Source of the DNA: Umezawaea endophytica
Lineage (GTDB): Bacteria; Actinomycetota; Actinomycetes; Mycobacteriales; Pseudonocardiaceae
Direction: 5' to 3'
DNA length: 64,000 bases
Assembly: GCF_025061645.1 (NCBI RefSeq)
Contig: NZ_JANYMP010000013.1
Span: 62,001-126,000 of the forward strand
This document shows positions 21,830 through 26,769 of the stretch, piece by piece. The stretch's first letter is position 1. Each line of letters opens with the position of its first letter. Below the pieces are notes generated by a model. It was given only the letters and a program-made list of their open reading frames with translations, did no database searches and had not been told where the DNA came from. A program made the position numbers and the translations under genes.

Positions 21830-21864
21830 TTGCACCCTGGGTTTGAGTTACATAGACTCAAACC
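21830..21864 (+). promoter_or_regulatory. HspR/HAIR-type operator and leaderless promoter
   Basis: Two 9-bp arms GGTTTGAGT (21840-21848) and ACTCAAACC (21856-21864) are separated by 7 bp. The core TTGAGT-N7-ACTCAA matches the HspR-associated inverted repeat (CTTGAGT-N7-ACTCAAG) except for the outermost base of each arm, changed symmetrically. It overlaps a -35 TTGCAC (21830-21835) and a -10 TAGACT (21853-21858) with 17-bp spacing. The predicted transcription start is at the ATG (21865), so the mRNA would be leaderless. A repressor bound here would cover the -10 box. Confidence 0.82.
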
Positions 21865-22875
21865 ATGTTCACGAGGGCAGAGGCGCTGGAGCGGGTGGAG
21901 TCGGCCGGATCGGCCGCGGGGCTCTTCGGGCCTCCCACCGGCGATCCGGCCAAGCGCAAGGAGGCGCGGCGGCTGTACCGGGCGCTGGCCTCGGTCCTGC
22001 ACCCGGACGTGACCGGTGCGGGGGACGTGCGGGCGCACGCGGCGTCCGCGGAACTGACCAGGATGCACCACGAGTGGACGCACGGGACGACCGTCGAGCT
22101 GCGCACCGCGACCGGCACCTACCGGATCGGCGAACCGTTCGCCGTCGGCAGCGTGGCGAACGTGTACGAGTCCGACGGCCCGCACGTGGTCAAGGTGGTG
22201 CGCAACCCGGCGCTGAACCCGTTGCTGCACGGCGAGTGGGACGCGCTGCGGGCGTTGGAGCGGTTCACCAACCAGAACCGCTGGCTCCAGCCCTACTACC
22301 CGCGACTGCTCGACACCTCCGGTGATGTCGGCCGGGGCGAGCGGGCGTTCACGGTGCTCGACCCGCTGGTCGACGGGTTCGTGACGCTGGCCGACGTGCG
22401 GCGGGCGTTCCCGCACGGGCTGGACGGGCGCGACTACGCGTGGATGCACCGCAGGCTGCTCAAGGCACTGGCCGGAGCGCACCGGATCGGCCTGGTGCAC
22501 GGGGCCGTCACCGCCGAGAACGTGCTGGTGCACCCCGAGAAGCACGGGATCGTGCTGGCCGGGTGGTCGTTCGCCGTCGAGGCGGGACAACGGCTCCTCG
22601 CCACCAGCAAGACCATCACCTACCCGCCGGAGGTCCACACCGGACAGCCGGTCACCACCGCCACCGACGTCCACATGGCGCACACGCTGATGCTGGACCT
22701 GCTGGCGCCGAACGAGAAGCGGCAGATCACGTTCGCCCGCGGGTGCGTCCAGGACCGGCCGTCCCGACGACCGGACGCCGTCGACCTGCTCGGCGAGTAC
22801 GACGACCTGCTCGAAGACCTCTACGGCAAGCGGGTTTTCCGCCCGTTCGCCCTCCCGAACCAGACAGGAGCCTGA
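21865..22875 (+). CDS. J-domain / pseudokinase fusion protein
   Basis: A 336-residue protein. The N-terminus is a short J-domain with RRLYRALASVLHPDVTG, giving the DnaK-binding HPD at residues 46-48. Residues about 85-300 are a protein-kinase-like fold: a glycine-loop-like GEPFAVGSVANVYES, a Lys in HVVKVVRN, and HGAVTAENVLVH in place of the catalytic loop. The usual catalytic Asp of the loop is absent (HGAV) and the DFG position reads GWS, so it is probably a pseudokinase used for binding rather than phosphotransfer. The transcript appears leaderless with a HAIR operator, which fits a DnaK co-chaperone. It is followed after 2 bp by the vWA gene. Confidence 0.85.
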   Translation: MFTRAEALERVESAGSAAGLFGPPTGDPAKRKEARRLYRALASVLHPDVTGAGDVRAHAASAELTRMHHEWTHGTTVELRTATGTYRIGEPFAVGSVANVYESDGPHVVKVVRNPALNPLLHGEWDALRALERFTNQNRWLQPYYPRLLDTSGDVGRGERAFTVLDPLVDGFVTLADVRRAFPHGLDGRDYAWMHRRLLKALAGAHRIGLVHGAVTAENVLVHPEKHGIVLAGWSFAVEAGQRLLATSKTITYPPEVHTGQPVTTATDVHMAHTLMLDLLAPNEKRQITFARGCVQDRPSRRPDAVDLLGEYDDLLEDLYGKRVFRPFALPNQTGA

Positions 22876-22877
22876 CC

Positions 22878-23864
22878 ATGGGACACGGACGTTGGGACGA
22901 CAACGCCTACGCGGCGGCCAAGACCTTCCGCGCGGCCAAGGGGATCGCCGACTTCGGCTACACCGCGGCGACGAAGGGCAAGCCGTCGTCGAGCTGGAAG
23001 GCCGCTCCCTCGATGGACCCGCTGAACGTGGCGGCCCGCGAGTGCCGCGACTCACCGGACCACGCCGACTCGACGCCGATCGCGGTGCTGTTCGACGTGA
23101 CCGGGTCGATGGGCAGCGTCCCGAAGATCATGCAGGGCAAGCTCGGCAAGCTGCACGGCCTGTTGCAGCGCAAGGGCTACCTGGCCGACCCGCAGCTCAT
23201 GTTCGGCGGGATCGGTGACGCCGACAGCGACCGCGTGCCGCTCCAGGTCGGCCAGTTCGAGTCGGACAACCGGATGGACGACCAGCTCCGCGACATCTTC
23301 CTGGAGGGCAACGGGGGCGGGCAGAAGAGCGAGTCCTACGAGCTGGCCGCGTACTTCGTGGCCCGGCACGTGGTCACCGACGCGTGGCAGAAGCGCGGCC
23401 GCAAGGGTTACCTGTTCCTCATCGGCGACGAGCTGAACAAGCCCCGGCTGGAGGCGCGGCACATCCGCCGGATCATCGGCGACGACATCGCGCAGGACAT
23501 CGACCCCGTGTCGGTGTACCGCGAACTGGCCCGCAAGTGGAACGTCTACTTCATCCTGCCCAACCAGTCGTCGTACTACAACGACGACGCGATCGGCGAG
23601 CACTGGCGCCAGATCCTCGGCCAGAACTTCCTCAAGCTGGACGACCCCGGCGCGGTGTGCGAGCTGATCGCGGCGACGATCGGCGTGGAGGAGCGCGTGG
23701 TCGACCTGGACCAGGCGCTGGTGGACCTGGCCGAGATCGGGTCGGTCGCCGAGAGCAGGGCGGTCGGCAAGGCGCTGGTCTCGGTCGGTGCGAACGCGAG
23801 GTCGCTGACGAAGTCGGCCGCCCCGCTGGGCATCGACGGCCCCGACGACGTGGCGCTGAGCTGA
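22878..23864 (+). CDS. vWA-like protein in the J-domain operon
   Basis: A 328-residue protein starting at ATG 22878, 2 bp after the previous stop. Residues about 66-250 look like a von Willebrand A fold: IAVLFDVTGSMGSVP is a MIDAS-type metal site (about residues 68-82) and GYLFLIGDELN is the later strand. No signal peptide or membrane segment is seen, so it is cytosolic. vWA proteins usually act as adaptors that bind a partner through the metal site. Here the partner could be the J-domain pseudokinase. The exact family is not recognised. Confidence 0.83.
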   Translation: MGHGRWDDNAYAAAKTFRAAKGIADFGYTAATKGKPSSSWKAAPSMDPLNVAARECRDSPDHADSTPIAVLFDVTGSMGSVPKIMQGKLGKLHGLLQRKGYLADPQLMFGGIGDADSDRVPLQVGQFESDNRMDDQLRDIFLEGNGGGQKSESYELAAYFVARHVVTDAWQKRGRKGYLFLIGDELNKPRLEARHIRRIIGDDIAQDIDPVSVYRELARKWNVYFILPNQSSYYNDDAIGEHWRQILGQNFLKLDDPGAVCELIAATIGVEERVVDLDQALVDLAEIGSVAESRAVGKALVSVGANARSLTKSAAPLGIDGPDDVALS

Positions 23865-23865
23865 C

Positions 23866-25128
23866 GTGAGCACCGGGGAGCACGTGGTCGTCGTCGGGTT
23901 GGGGTTCGGCGACGAGGGCAAGGGAGCGGTGGTCGACGCGCTGTGCGCGGACGGCTCGGTGTCGACGGTGGTGCGGTTCAACGGGGGTGCCCAGGCCGCG
24001 CACAACGTGGTCGTGGGCGGGAAGCACCACACGTTCAGCCAGTTCGGGTCCGGCACGCTCGCGGGTGTGCCGACCTGGCTGTCCCGCCACGTGCTGGTGG
24101 AGCCGATCGCGCTGGCGGCGGAGTCGCGGGAGCTGGCGGCGCTCGGCGTCGACGACCCGTTGGGGCTGGTGTCGATCGACGCCGACGCGCTGCTCACGAC
24201 CCCGTTCCACGTCGCCGCGAACCGGGCGAGGGAGGACGCCAGGGGTGTCGACCGGCACGGGTCGTGCGGCAAGGGGATCGGCGAGACGGCCTGGTACGCG
24301 CTGCTCGCCGAGCGGGGGGCCGCGCCGGGCGACGTGGTGGAGGGCCAGGAGGTGCCGGGCCCGCCCGGCCCGGCACCGACGGTGGGCGACTGCGCGAACC
24401 CGGTCGCGTTGCGGCGCAAGCTCGACGTGCTCGCCCGGTGCTACGAGCCGCTGATCGGGGACGGCGTCGCCGTCGACGACCTGGTGGTGCTCTACCGGGC
24501 GTTCGCGGACGCCGTGCGGATCACGACCGGTGACGAGGCGGGTCGGCTGGCCGACGCCGGACGGCTGGTCTTCGAGGGCGCGCAAGGGGTTCTCCTCGAC
24601 GAGACGCACGGCTTCCACCCGCACACCACGTGGTCCACGGTCACGCCGCGCAACGCGAGGGCGCTGCTCGCGGGCCGGGCCGCGCGGGTGCTGGGCGTGA
24701 CGCGGACCTACCAGACGCGGCACGGCGCGGGCCCGCTGCCGACCGAGGACCGCGGTGTCGCGGACCGGTTCGCCGAACGCCACAACGGCACCGGCGAGTA
24801 CCAGGGCGCGTGGCGGGCGGGCCACCTGGACACCGTGCTGCTGCGGTACGCCGTGGCCGCGTGCGGCGGCGTCGACGGCCTCGCCGTGACGCACCTGGAC
24901 GCGCGGGACCTGATGGCCGCCACGTCCTACCGGACCGCCGCGGGCGGGCTCACCGAACTGGGGCCCCGCCCGGACCTCACGGAGTTCGTGGCGGGCTGCG
25001 AGCCGGTCCTGGAGGCGCTGGCCGACCCGGTGGGGTCGCTGGAGGACCTGCTCGGCGTCCCGGTGCTCGTCACCGGCTCGGGCCCCGCCCGGACCGACTA
25101 CGCCGTGCGGACCCCGGTCCGCCACTGA
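23866..25128 (+). CDS. Divergent adenylosuccinate synthetase (PurA) paralogue
   Basis: A 420-residue protein that keeps the PurA P-loop GFGDEGKG with catalytic Asp16, a His46 in GGAQAAHNVVV (equivalent to the NAGH motif), FEGAQGVLLDETHGF and RHGAGPLPTED. It departs at sites that bind IMP and aspartate in true PurA: the SSNTTAGG-type loop reads TWSTVTPRNA, the arginine-rich loop after GEYQ reads GAWRAGHL, and the TKLD base-specificity motif reads THLD. It therefore probably ligates a different base, nucleotide or amino acid. GTG 23866 starts 1 bp after the previous stop. A housekeeping PurA should exist elsewhere in the genome. Confidence 0.85.
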   Translation: MSTGEHVVVVGLGFGDEGKGAVVDALCADGSVSTVVRFNGGAQAAHNVVVGGKHHTFSQFGSGTLAGVPTWLSRHVLVEPIALAAESRELAALGVDDPLGLVSIDADALLTTPFHVAANRAREDARGVDRHGSCGKGIGETAWYALLAERGAAPGDVVEGQEVPGPPGPAPTVGDCANPVALRRKLDVLARCYEPLIGDGVAVDDLVVLYRAFADAVRITTGDEAGRLADAGRLVFEGAQGVLLDETHGFHPHTTWSTVTPRNARALLAGRAARVLGVTRTYQTRHGAGPLPTEDRGVADRFAERHNGTGEYQGAWRAGHLDTVLLRYAVAACGGVDGLAVTHLDARDLMAATSYRTAAGGLTELGPRPDLTEFVAGCEPVLEALADPVGSLEDLLGVPVLVTGSGPARTDYAVRTPVRH

Positions 25129-25147
25129 GGTGCGGGAGAATCCCACC

Positions 25148-25783
25148 ATGATCGAGTCGACGCTGGTCTCGGTGGACGTGGTCGTGCTGCGGTTCGACCA
25201 GACCGCGCGCGCGGTGCTCCTGGGGGTAGCACCGCGCGCGCTGGCCCCGTTCGCGGGCGACCTGGCACTGCCGGGTGTGCTGCTGGGCAAGGGCGAACGC
25301 TTGCGCGACGCGTCCCGGCGGGCCGTCACCGGCAAGCTGGGCGTGCCGGACGGGGCCGTGACCGCGACCGGCCAGCTCGCGATGTTCGACGAGCCGTCCC
25401 GCGACCCCCGCGGCCCGACGCTGTCGATCGCCCTGTGGGCCACCGTCGACCCCGCCCGCCTGGACGACGGCGGCCCCACGTGGACGCCGCTGGCCACCGT
25501 GCCGCCCCTGGCGTTCGACCACAACAGGATCGTCGCGGACTGCCGTCCCCTGCTGGCCGACAAGCTGTGGCGCGACACGGCGTTCACCGCCGGTCTGCTG
25601 GGCCAGGAGTTCACCACCGCGCAAGCGCTCGACGTCACCGAGTCCCTCACCGGCGACCGGCCCTACCCGGCCAACCTCGGCCGCACGATGGACCGCGTCC
25701 CCGGCCTCGAACGCACCGCCCAGCACGCCGCCGCCCTGCCGAAGGGCGGCCGTCCGCCGCTGGTGTGGCGGTGGAACCCCTAG
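25148..25783 (+). CDS. NrtR-like NUDIX protein with degenerate NUDIX box
   Basis: A 211-residue protein starting at ATG 25148 behind GGGAGA. The N-terminal half is a NUDIX fold (VSVDVVVLRFDQ at the start). The box region reads GKGERLRDASRRAVTGKLG; the first Glu is kept, but the REUXEE core is replaced by RRAVTGK, so hydrolysis is unlikely. The C-terminal half (about residue 140 on) resembles the winged helix of NrtR regulators. NrtR proteins sense ADP-ribose and control NAD genes, so this may be a nucleotide-sensing regulator of the operon. It follows the PurA-like gene by 19 bp. Confidence 0.78.
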   Translation: MIESTLVSVDVVVLRFDQTARAVLLGVAPRALAPFAGDLALPGVLLGKGERLRDASRRAVTGKLGVPDGAVTATGQLAMFDEPSRDPRGPTLSIALWATVDPARLDDGGPTWTPLATVPPLAFDHNRIVADCRPLLADKLWRDTAFTAGLLGQEFTTAQALDVTESLTGDRPYPANLGRTMDRVPGLERTAQHAAALPKGGRPPLVWRWNP

Positions 25784-25817
25784 CCCGGTTCAAGATCCGC
25801 GAGCCGTCGGCGCCCGT

Positions 25818-25823
25818 TAGGAT
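25818..25823 (+). promoter_or_regulatory. Possible -10 box before the SLATT gene
   Basis: TAGGAT at 25818-25823 lies in the 83-bp gap before the DUF4231 gene. No -35 with good spacing is seen. A GGAAGG ribosome site is at about 25854-25859. The gene may thus have its own promoter besides read-through. Confidence 0.3.
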
Positions 25824-25866
25824 CCCGAGCGAGTTCCCAGCGACGTCCCGTCAGGAAGGCGCGCGA

Positions 25867-26769
25867 ATGGCCACACCGGTCGAAGGCCTGGAAGACGCCC
25901 ACCTGCCGGGGTTGTTCGACTCGGCGGACAGGACGTCGCTGCTGGGGCAGAAGCAGTACGGGCGCACCGTGAAGCTCAGCCTCGTCTTCGCCGTCGTCGC
26001 CGCGGCCACGGGGATCTTCTCCTGGAAGGTCGGCGCGACCGGGATCGACTTCGCCGCGATCGGCACCGCGGCCGCGCTGGTCGCCATCCTCCTGCTCGAG
26101 GTCACGGTGAACTCCAGCAGGCCCGAGGACCGCTGGTACGACGGCCGCGCGCTCGCCGAGTCCGCCAAGAGCCTCGCGTGGCGCTTCAGCGTCGGCGCCC
26201 TCCCGTTCCCGATGGGGGAAGACGAGGCCAAGGCCGAGCAGCGGTTCGTCGACCAGGTGTCGCGCCTGCTCGAAGACGCCCCGACGACGGCCATACCGCC
26301 GTCGGACCGGCCGGTGATCACCGAGCGGATGTCGGCGATCCGGGCGAGCGACCTGGCCACCCGCAAGGCCGTCTACCTGGAGTCCCGGATCGCCGACCAG
26401 CAGAGGTGGTACTCCGGCAAGGCCGCGTTCAACGGCAAGCGCGCGGGCCAGTACCGGGTGGCGCTGGTCGTCATCGAACTGCTGGGCATCGGCGCGGCAC
26501 TGGCGAAGGCGTTCGGCTACGTCAGCCTGGACCTCGCGGGGGTCGTCGCCGCGGTCATCGCCGCGGGGACGGCGTGGATGAACCTCAAGCAGTTCTCCAC
26601 CCTCGCCCGCGCCTACTCGTTCGCGGCGGCGGAACTGACCATCGCCCGCGCCCGCCTCGAACGCGTCGAGGACGAGGCGACGTGGTCCGCCGAGGTCGCC
26701 GATTCGGAGGAAGCCGTGAGCCGGGAGCACACCATGTGGCGCGCCTCCCGGTCACGGGCGTCGAGCTAG
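25867..26769 (+). CDS. DUF4231 / SLATT-type membrane protein
   Basis: A 300-residue protein starting at ATG 25867. It has two N-terminal membrane segments (about 40-60 and 65-85), then the DUF4231 pattern WYDGRALAESAKSLAWRFSV, a cytosolic helical part, and two more membrane segments (about 195-215 and 222-242), then a charged C-terminal helix. DUF4231 belongs to the SLATT group of small membrane effectors that are predicted to form pores when a linked nucleotide-signal sensor is triggered. Its position after a PurA-like and a NUDIX-like gene suits that role. It ends 18 bp inside the convergent phosphotransferase gene. Confidence 0.83.
   Translation: MATPVEGLEDAHLPGLFDSADRTSLLGQKQYGRTVKLSLVFAVVAAATGIFSWKVGATGIDFAAIGTAAALVAILLLEVTVNSSRPEDRWYDGRALAESAKSLAWRFSVGALPFPMGEDEAKAEQRFVDQVSRLLEDAPTTAIPPSDRPVITERMSAIRASDLATRKAVYLESRIADQQRWYSGKAAFNGKRAGQYRVALVVIELLGIGAALAKAFGYVSLDLAGVVAAVIAAGTAWMNLKQFSTLARAYSFAAAELTIARARLERVEDEATWSAEVADSEEAVSREHTMWRASRSRASS

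Follow-up and report, generated by a model that had tools for sequence, protein, structure and literature searches.

A 64,000-nt stretch of contig NZ_JANYMP010000013.1 from Umezawaea endophytica (the window, whose positions are used throughout) carries five closely spaced plus-strand genes, the first four of which almost certainly constitute a conserved unit, judging from their recurrence at related loci. They encode a J-domain pseudokinase (J-kinase), a vWA-like protein, a PurA-like ligase and a Nudix-type regulator. The first three, referred to below as the triad, have homologs in phages, and we are highly confident that they are shared with them. Taking the sequence comparisons as a whole, we lean towards a four-gene, self-repressed cassette in which the ligase would work together with an adaptor pair recruiting DnaK and binding peptide. 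This gene set is apparently undescribed. The original prediction, made from the letters of the window, had associated it with no described system, and no description was found among the open-licence papers searched; the main text of the three closest papers contains no word in 'adenylosuccin-'. The five open reading frames (ORFs) and the gaps between them (2, 1, 19 and 83 bp) were re-read as originally described, and the features of the locus are the following:

21830..21835, plus strand: putative -35 element TTGCAC, read directly from the sequence, 17 bp from the -10 element
21841..21863, no strand assigned: palindrome GTTTGAGT-N7-ACTCAAAC, proposed as the box bound by the NrtR-like regulator of the operon, earlier read as an HspR-associated inverted repeat (HAIR)
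21853..21858, plus strand: putative -10 element TAGACT, read directly from the sequence, inside the palindrome and 6 nt before the ATG
21865..22875, plus strand: gene 1, J-domain and pseudokinase; retains HPD and the VAIK Lys, with Ala in place of the HRD Asp and Gly in place of the DFG Asp
22878..23864, plus strand: gene 2, vWA-like protein with DVTGSM and IGDE resembling a metal ion-dependent adhesion site (MIDAS); phrog_2971, of unknown function
23866..25128, plus strand: gene 3, PurA-like ligase; retains the P-loop and catalytic Asp/His, with changes in the aspartate loop and IMP-phosphate site; phrog_1211
25148..25783, plus strand: gene 4, NrtR/AraR-type regulator, a Nudix domain with a degenerate box followed by a C-terminal winged helix
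25867..26769, plus strand: gene 5, SLATT_3 plus SLATT_1 protein (Pfam), a neighbour outside the conserved unit

Conservation of the cassette and its occurrence in phages and plasmids

Relatives of the vWA-like gene were collected from 369 stretches of a genome collection, 80 of which were kept. The gene was present in 41 of 394 genomes sampled from the class, with one match each, and in 19 of 120 genomes of the family; a profile containing phage sequences matched two of the 396 genomes of a phylum-wide sample, including the window's own. Gene neighbourhoods were compared at 120 loci (the 80 named ones and 40 sampled ones, among them a few duplicate contigs, such as L116 and L001, and some cut by contig ends), where the vWA-like gene was accompanied by the PurA-like gene in 119 cases, by the NUDIX gene in 116 and by the J-kinase gene in 88. 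The window order (J-kinase, vWA, PurA-like, NUDIX) was that of Pseudonocardiaceae and some Nocardia; most other genomes fetched from the class displayed the order NUDIX, J-kinase, vWA, PurA-like, and no J-kinase was found in many Nocardia loci. The cassette occupied varying chromosomal sites and was also present on plasmids. Because genes 1 to 4 are conserved at related loci, in this or the rotated order, the objection that no neighbourhood is conserved falls, and the neighbourhood originally predicted stands for these four genes but not for the fifth. Gene 5, whose product combines SLATT_3 and SLATT_1 (Pfam), had no relative at 80, 120 or 129 related loci, which are overlapping sets with some loci cut (the 129 being the 120 and nine more, two of them from the window's own genus). 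It was consequently dropped from the cassette as a local neighbour, and its proposed role as the membrane effector of the operon is not supported. No dnaE relatives were found beside the cassette at the 129 loci either.

Mobile DNA also hosted these genes. The vWA-like protein matched 21 of 72,556 plasmid records and 207 of 50,697 phage records, 188 of the latter being from Mycobacterium phages. All four genes are present on a Rhodococcus opacus plasmid, and on an Agrobacterium vitis plasmid the NUDIX gene is divergent from J-kinase, vWA and PurA-like genes. In Sebata (Bixzunavirus), the kinase, the vWA-like gene, a small gene and the PurA-like gene follow each other in that order. Among 52 viral contigs from IMG/VR (36 longer than 100 kb, some near-duplicates), the PurA-like gene was found on 49, the J-kinase gene on 39, the complete triad on 36 and a NUDIX gene on seven. 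In a tree of 93 PurA-like rows, bacterial rows were grouped among viral ones with six changes of host/virus label. Phage to bacterium is the likely direction of transfer suggested by these comparisons, and bacteria would probably have taken the triad from phages before adding the regulator.

Several observations weigh against this reading. At 32 of the 120 bacterial and 13 of the 52 viral loci, some of which are cut, the J-kinase went undetected, and it was likewise missing from Rhizobium and Vibrio phage stretches where the vWA-like and PurA-like genes are present; owing to these absences, it is not obligatory. Some 'viral' contigs may be misassigned. In the tree, at least two of the six switches are forced by well-supported branches, with bootstrap values unsettled, and the outgroup of canonical sequences is a long branch.

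The viral neighbourhood was surveyed with 111 of 159 neighbour ORFs, picked crudely from 32 of the 52 contigs; in the 25 commonest families, no Pfam family recurred in more than three of the 111, and NAMPT occurred in two. In Rhizobium phage RHph_TM39 (L176:1005-3269), genes with dehalogenase hydrolase-like, phosphoribosyltransferase-like and NMN adenylyltransferase/NUDIX annotations, situated upstream of the vWA-like/PurA-like pair at a distance of a few genes, recall Ter-type nucleotide modules.

Sequence features of the four proteins

The gene 1 protein of the window matched the kinase and DnaJ families of Pfam below threshold. At the level of its family, DnaJ and Pkinase were each matched by 20 of 37 members (E<=0.01), and the family profile retrieved kinases such as PknA from the PDB (E 1.7e-11). 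The HPD residues of the J-domain were conserved in 91, 91 and 92 of 94 bacterial rows, respectively, and in 32, 35 and 33 of 41 viral ones. The catalytic HRD Asp, expected of a catalytic kinase, was found in none of the 94 bacterial rows and in three of the 41 viral ones. The DFG Asp, a Gly in the window, was present in 33 bacterial and 30 viral rows. Since HPD is kept and the HRD Asp is lost, the protein is best described as a J-domain pseudokinase, in agreement with its first description.

In the family of gene 2, four MIDAS-like residues, D73, T75, S77 and D184, were found in 125, 125, 125 and 126 of 126 bacterial rows and in 55, 54, 55 and 55 of 56 viral ones. The original vWA assignment holds for these near-invariant residues but not for profile matches: the window protein matched nothing in Pfam, NCBIfam or PADLOC, Pfam vWA was not matched by any of 43 family members, and the sole PDB match of the family profile was unrelated and at chance level (E 0.35). 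Using hhalign, the family was compared with eight vWA proteins of the same genome (from ten loci, two of which were dropped for want of a usable motif); the MIDAS-like strand alone was aligned, with P 0.0013 and a probability of 18%, against P 0.44 and 0.63 for two control profiles. The support for the 'vWA' name is thus at the level of motifs.

In Mycobacterium phage CharlieB (L253:2501-4282), the vWA-like gene is a 593-aa ORF annotated as an HNH endonuclease, and directly before the conserved FIGDE it is interrupted in frame by an intein some 253 aa long. A number of the listed Mycobacterium phages match the vWA-like protein in two pieces, perhaps because of an intein. Inteins tend to favour functional sites. 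In one genome of the family (G448:C1:8616931-8617854), the vWA-like copy contains an internal TGA and possibly belongs to a decaying cassette.

The gene 3 protein was matched by Pfam Adenylsucc_synt (E 3.5e-60) and scored 130.6 and 160.6 bits with the NCBIfam purA and PurZ models, far under their cut-offs of 395.55 and 402, which bears out the divergent PurA-like ligase of the original prediction. Positions and residue roles below are those of E. coli PurA. The equivalents of the catalytic Asp13 and His41 were Asp and His in all 124 bacterial rows, and in 50 and 52 of the 52 viral ones. An alignment with the PurA of this genome shows that the family also keeps the GDxGKG P-loop and the equivalents of Gln224 and Asp333. 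Other positions are altered: Asn38 is replaced by Gln (124 of 124 bacterial and 50 of 52 viral rows), Val273 by His and Thr301 by Gln (each in 176 of 176 rows), in the aspartate loop no Arg is aligned with R303 or R305, and conservation is lacking in the stretch of the phosphate-binding R143. With its aspartate loop and IMP-phosphate residues changed and its score under the equivalog cut-off, gene 3 departs from PurA proper; the genome has a second PurA-type gene, 36% identical to it. A GTP-driven activation of 6-oxopurine may thus be kept by the PurA-like enzyme and directed to a new acceptor. The corresponding phrog_1211 is labelled '2-aminooxy adenylosuccinate synthetase' under nucleotide metabolism.

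The window's gene 4 protein by itself matched NUDIX below threshold, but strongly as a family profile. In the PDB, a profile of 25 sequences retrieved AraR 5bs6 (E 5.1e-39) and NrtR 3gz5/3gz6 (E 2e-33), the latter over positions 3-214 of 218; NadQ 7q91 was matched in its winged helix (E 6.8e-19). By this evidence gene 4 is an NrtR/AraR-type regulator with a degenerate Nudix box, and the 'sensor-like NUDIX' protein of the original prediction was right as to the Nudix family but lacked the winged helix of a regulator. The catalytic REx2EE box, as expected of a Nudix hydrolase, was absent from all 81 proteins encoded after the PurA-like gene, as in the window, whereas 26 of the 35 whose gene precedes vWA possess it. 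In these NUDIX-first loci the winged helix differs as well, as seen by eye in a 25-row alignment.

The upstream palindrome and proposed operon control

The palindrome GTTTGAGT-N7-ACTCAAAC ends one base before the ATG of gene 1, in what looks like a leaderless promoter with its -10 element under the operator. Promoter layouts resembling that of the window were seen in many of the relatives listed, and a count by eye gave TTGC near the place of the -35 element for 29 of the 38 loci from Pseudonocardiaceae. Inside the palindrome, at 21843-21861 and 3 bp before the ATG, lies an exact TTGAGT-N7-ACTCAA; the HAIR form pointed out originally (TTGAG-N9-CTCAA) is present and perfect. It is the sole match of the window at <=2 mismatches, compared with a mean of 0.25 matches in shuffled windows (at least one in 23 of 100 shuffles), and the sole exact copy in the 11.0-Mb genome.

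Two regulators can be considered for this site. The M. smegmatis NrtR is an auto-repressor released by ADP-ribose, and its palindrome GTTTTCGA-N7-TCGAAAAC was bound in a gel shift (PMC6800001). The window palindrome shares its 23-bp layout, as does the box GTTTTAGT-N7-ACTAAAAC of many Nocardia operons, and Rhodococcus and Tsukamurella plasmids carry the boxes TTTTAGTC-N5-GACTAAAA and TTTCTAGTC-N5-GACTAGAAA at the ATG. The exact window box was found in 12 of the 120 family genomes, once in each, and in every case the vWA-like gene begins roughly 1 kb downstream of it; the 101 family genomes that gave no match to the vWA profile do not contain it, and its reversed control was absent from all 120. 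More generally, arms of the form 8-N7-8 with at least 7/8 matching, at most 60 bp from the first gene, were found at 68 of 85 loci led by J-kinase or vWA, compared with a mean of 1.26 and a maximum of 5 in shuffles; the 85 loci are related and hence not independent.

The second regulator is HspR. According to the original prediction, the five genes form a stress or abortive-response operon that HspR represses, the SLATT protein being its pore-forming effector. A perfect HspR core close to the ATG fits the minimal consensus (PMC2687793), the J-domain gene comes first in the operon, and SLATT, which shares its strand, follows after 83 bp. At <=1 mismatch, four HAIR-like sites were found in this genome, the window's included, and two of the three others are at dnaK and clpB. 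The distribution of the HAIR form among operons does not support such control. TTGAG-N9-CTCAA was found at 26 of 86 J-kinase- or vWA-led loci (one further locus being too short to score), was lost from the operon box in Nocardia and other families, and was absent from all 35 NUDIX-led loci, 28 of which contain a TTCTCA/TGAGAA array instead (loose expression). Regulator and box thus appear to differ together between the two arrangements, as judged by eye for the winged helix.

Eight operon-bearing genomes were searched for HAIR-like sites, with DnaK and ClpB recognised by short signature motifs alone. Such a site was present at the operon in two; the other six had none there and at least one elsewhere, and in four of these six a HAIR-like site and a DnaK signature persisted within the same 3-kb stretch. 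Including the two with an operon site, six of the eight genomes had a DnaK or ClpB signature beside HAIR-like sites; locus L169, recognised as ClpB by one of two expressions but not by the other, was left out of the counts. Both operon sites are flanked on the outside by T...A, a flank that 17 other sites all lack, the comparison covering 17 of 20 non-operon places and 19 of 22 HAIR-like places altogether. In total, the bare pattern was not more frequent than its reversed control, which equalled or exceeded it in four of the eight genomes and gave three sites in Umezawaea endophytica; because the control is as frequent, the bare pattern has little power, and we therefore relied on the location of the sites and not on their number.

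A dedicated regulator co-evolving with its box is preferred to HspR because it better explains the conservation of the box, its flank, its uniqueness and the loss of the HAIR form; the operon itself encodes a regulator of this kind, and the layout of the box matches it. We thus regard NrtR-type rather than HspR control as well supported by these comparisons. HspR control was judged unlikely from conservation, flank and genome-wide uniqueness, and the switch originally proposed is not supported by this comparison. The five-gene HspR operon as a whole, for which no SLATT relative was found at the related loci, is very improbable.

Some data fit less well with a dedicated NrtR-type box. The best palindromes of Agrobacterium, Rhizobium and Rhodovulum plasmids differ and are of uneven strength, seven of the 19 operon-bearing family genomes are without the exact box, and the form seen at the named Amycolatopsis loci is asymmetric. 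A spacer of 7 has no unique advantage: spacers of 5 and 9 scored 59 and 61 of 85, since one palindrome is also counted in its other frames. Finally, binding of HspR at the window site, a perfect HspR core, is possible.

Two further palindromes were recorded. In Nocardia loci (L078, L080 and others), a second 8-N7-8 palindrome, CTTTTTGT-N7-ACAAAAAG, lies about 49 bp upstream of the J-kinase gene, ahead of the box at the ATG, which suggests paired operators. The fourth HAIR-like site of the Umezawaea endophytica genome, TTGAGT-N7-GCTCAA, is about 65 bp before the ORF of a leucine-rich-repeat protein (L085, G000:C25:102785-102803).

Possible functions and comparison with known systems

In the model that we favour, the NrtR-like gene 4 protein would keep the operon off by sitting on the box over the -10 element. 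A nucleotide-type signal is a reasonable assumption for such a protein, and a ligand like that of known NrtRs (ADP-ribose or a relative), bound in the degenerate Nudix domain, would free the box, so that a rise of this nucleotide would lead to production of the triad. The J-domain would then recruit DnaK, with the pseudokinase as a scaffold, and the vWA-like protein would bind peptide through a metal and, together with the J-kinase, present a client protein or remodel it. The PurA-like enzyme would use GTP to activate a 6-oxopurine, which would be joined to something other than free aspartate because the acceptor pocket has been rebuilt, and it may act on or near the client held by the vWA-like protein. 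This combined action of ligase and adaptor is put forward tentatively from residue conservation and gene association. A more specific version is a protein-modifying machine, in which a 6-oxopurine nucleotide, activated with GTP by the PurA-derived enzyme, would be joined to a protein amine on clients delivered by the J-pseudokinase/vWA pair and DnaK; phages would use it during infection, and bacteria would have captured it and placed it under an NrtR-type switch released by a nucleotide. We hold this version to be improbable.

Another explanation, about as tentative as the ligase-plus-adaptor mechanism, is that the PurA-like enzyme makes a free small molecule. Its product would be a modified purine nucleotide, a signal or a precursor, for instance for phage nucleic acid, that the regulator senses, and the vWA-like protein and J-kinase would merely assemble or stabilise the enzyme. 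The PurA fold with altered pockets, the placement of phrog_1211 under nucleotide metabolism and the proximity of some phage copies to NAD-salvage or nucleotide genes (the two NAMPT neighbours and RHph_TM39) agree with this explanation. However, no biosynthetic partner recurs, as the viral neighbours indicated, and steady partners bearing a MIDAS-like motif and a J-domain would, in our judgement, be odd for simple metabolism.

Somewhat less plausible is a defence or superinfection-exclusion module, used by phages against rivals and captured by bacteria for immunity. The patchy spread of the cassette among genomes of the class and family, its variable sites, its occurrence on plasmids and the probable exchange with phages speak for such a module, whose logic also resembles that of Nudix transcription factor (Nudix-TF)/vWA-chaperone conflict operons (PMC9503650). 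Its genomic surroundings are less suggestive of defence. Among 112 of 128 flanking ORFs picked crudely at 34 bacterial loci, the commonest Pfam families (25 of 150) were metabolic or housekeeping ones, and no PADLOC model matched more than two of the 112 at E<=1e-10. Among the five window proteins, the J-kinase alone was matched by PADLOC, weakly and by kinase models, and without SLATT no toxic effector is evident. The conflict-system character suggested by the original prediction is a possibility, given ordinary-looking flanking genes and phages as the second main home of the triad.

Whatever its function, three protein families are kept together across actinobacteria, proteobacterial plasmids and phages, the set being reduced to its vWA-like and PurA-like members in the named phages of Rhizobium and Vibrio. 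This gives phrog_2971, phrog_3043 and phrog_1211 a joint context, and the cassette offers a testable switch. It also calls for caution, since a perfect HAIR can be the box of another regulator. The novelty is to be qualified: the function is predicted, a similar logic is known from Nudix-TF/vWA operons and the literature check was limited to open-licence papers.

The cassette shares traits with several known systems. The core TTGAGT-N7-ACTCAA is that of the HspR regulon of S. coelicolor (PMC2687793), from which the operon box is distinguished by its flank, its drift between taxa and its single-target behaviour. Like MoxR-vWA ternary conflict systems and Ter systems (PMC7159879, PMC7824862), where the protein is a vWA protein, the cassette pairs its vWA-like protein with a chaperone-type partner, and the Ter vWA is linked to enzymes of nucleotide derivatives; in contrast, no MoxR AAA+ or Ter family was found by Pfam in the five window proteins, which have a J-domain/DnaK link instead. 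With PurA and phage PurZ, gene 3 shares the fold, the GDxGKG P-loop, the catalytic Asp/His and the Asp at the GTP-base place, whereas its replacements at Asn38, Val273 and Thr301 and the loss of aspartate-loop arginines, near-invariant in the family, set it apart, as do its scores far below both NCBIfam cut-offs. Gene 4 resembles NrtR/AraR over its full length, Nudix and winged helix included, and the 23-bp GTTT...AAAC box resembles that of the M. smegmatis NrtR (PMC6800001); unlike these regulators, it adjoins a chaperone/ligase cassette and not NAD or arabinose genes, and the REx2EE box, frequent in NUDIX-first proteins, is missing from those of the window arrangement. Finally, ADP-ribosylglycohydrolase (ARG) operons with Nudix-HTH repressors and vWA chaperones have been described (PMC9503650), and the proposed off-by-default state, the Nudix-HTH sensor, the nucleotide-related enzyme and a vWA or vWA-like protein are all common to them and to the cassette. 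No ADP-ribosylglycohydrolase Pfam match was obtained in the five window proteins, however; the cassette differs from these operons in possessing a PurA-like enzyme and a J-pseudokinase, and in sharing its triad with phages.

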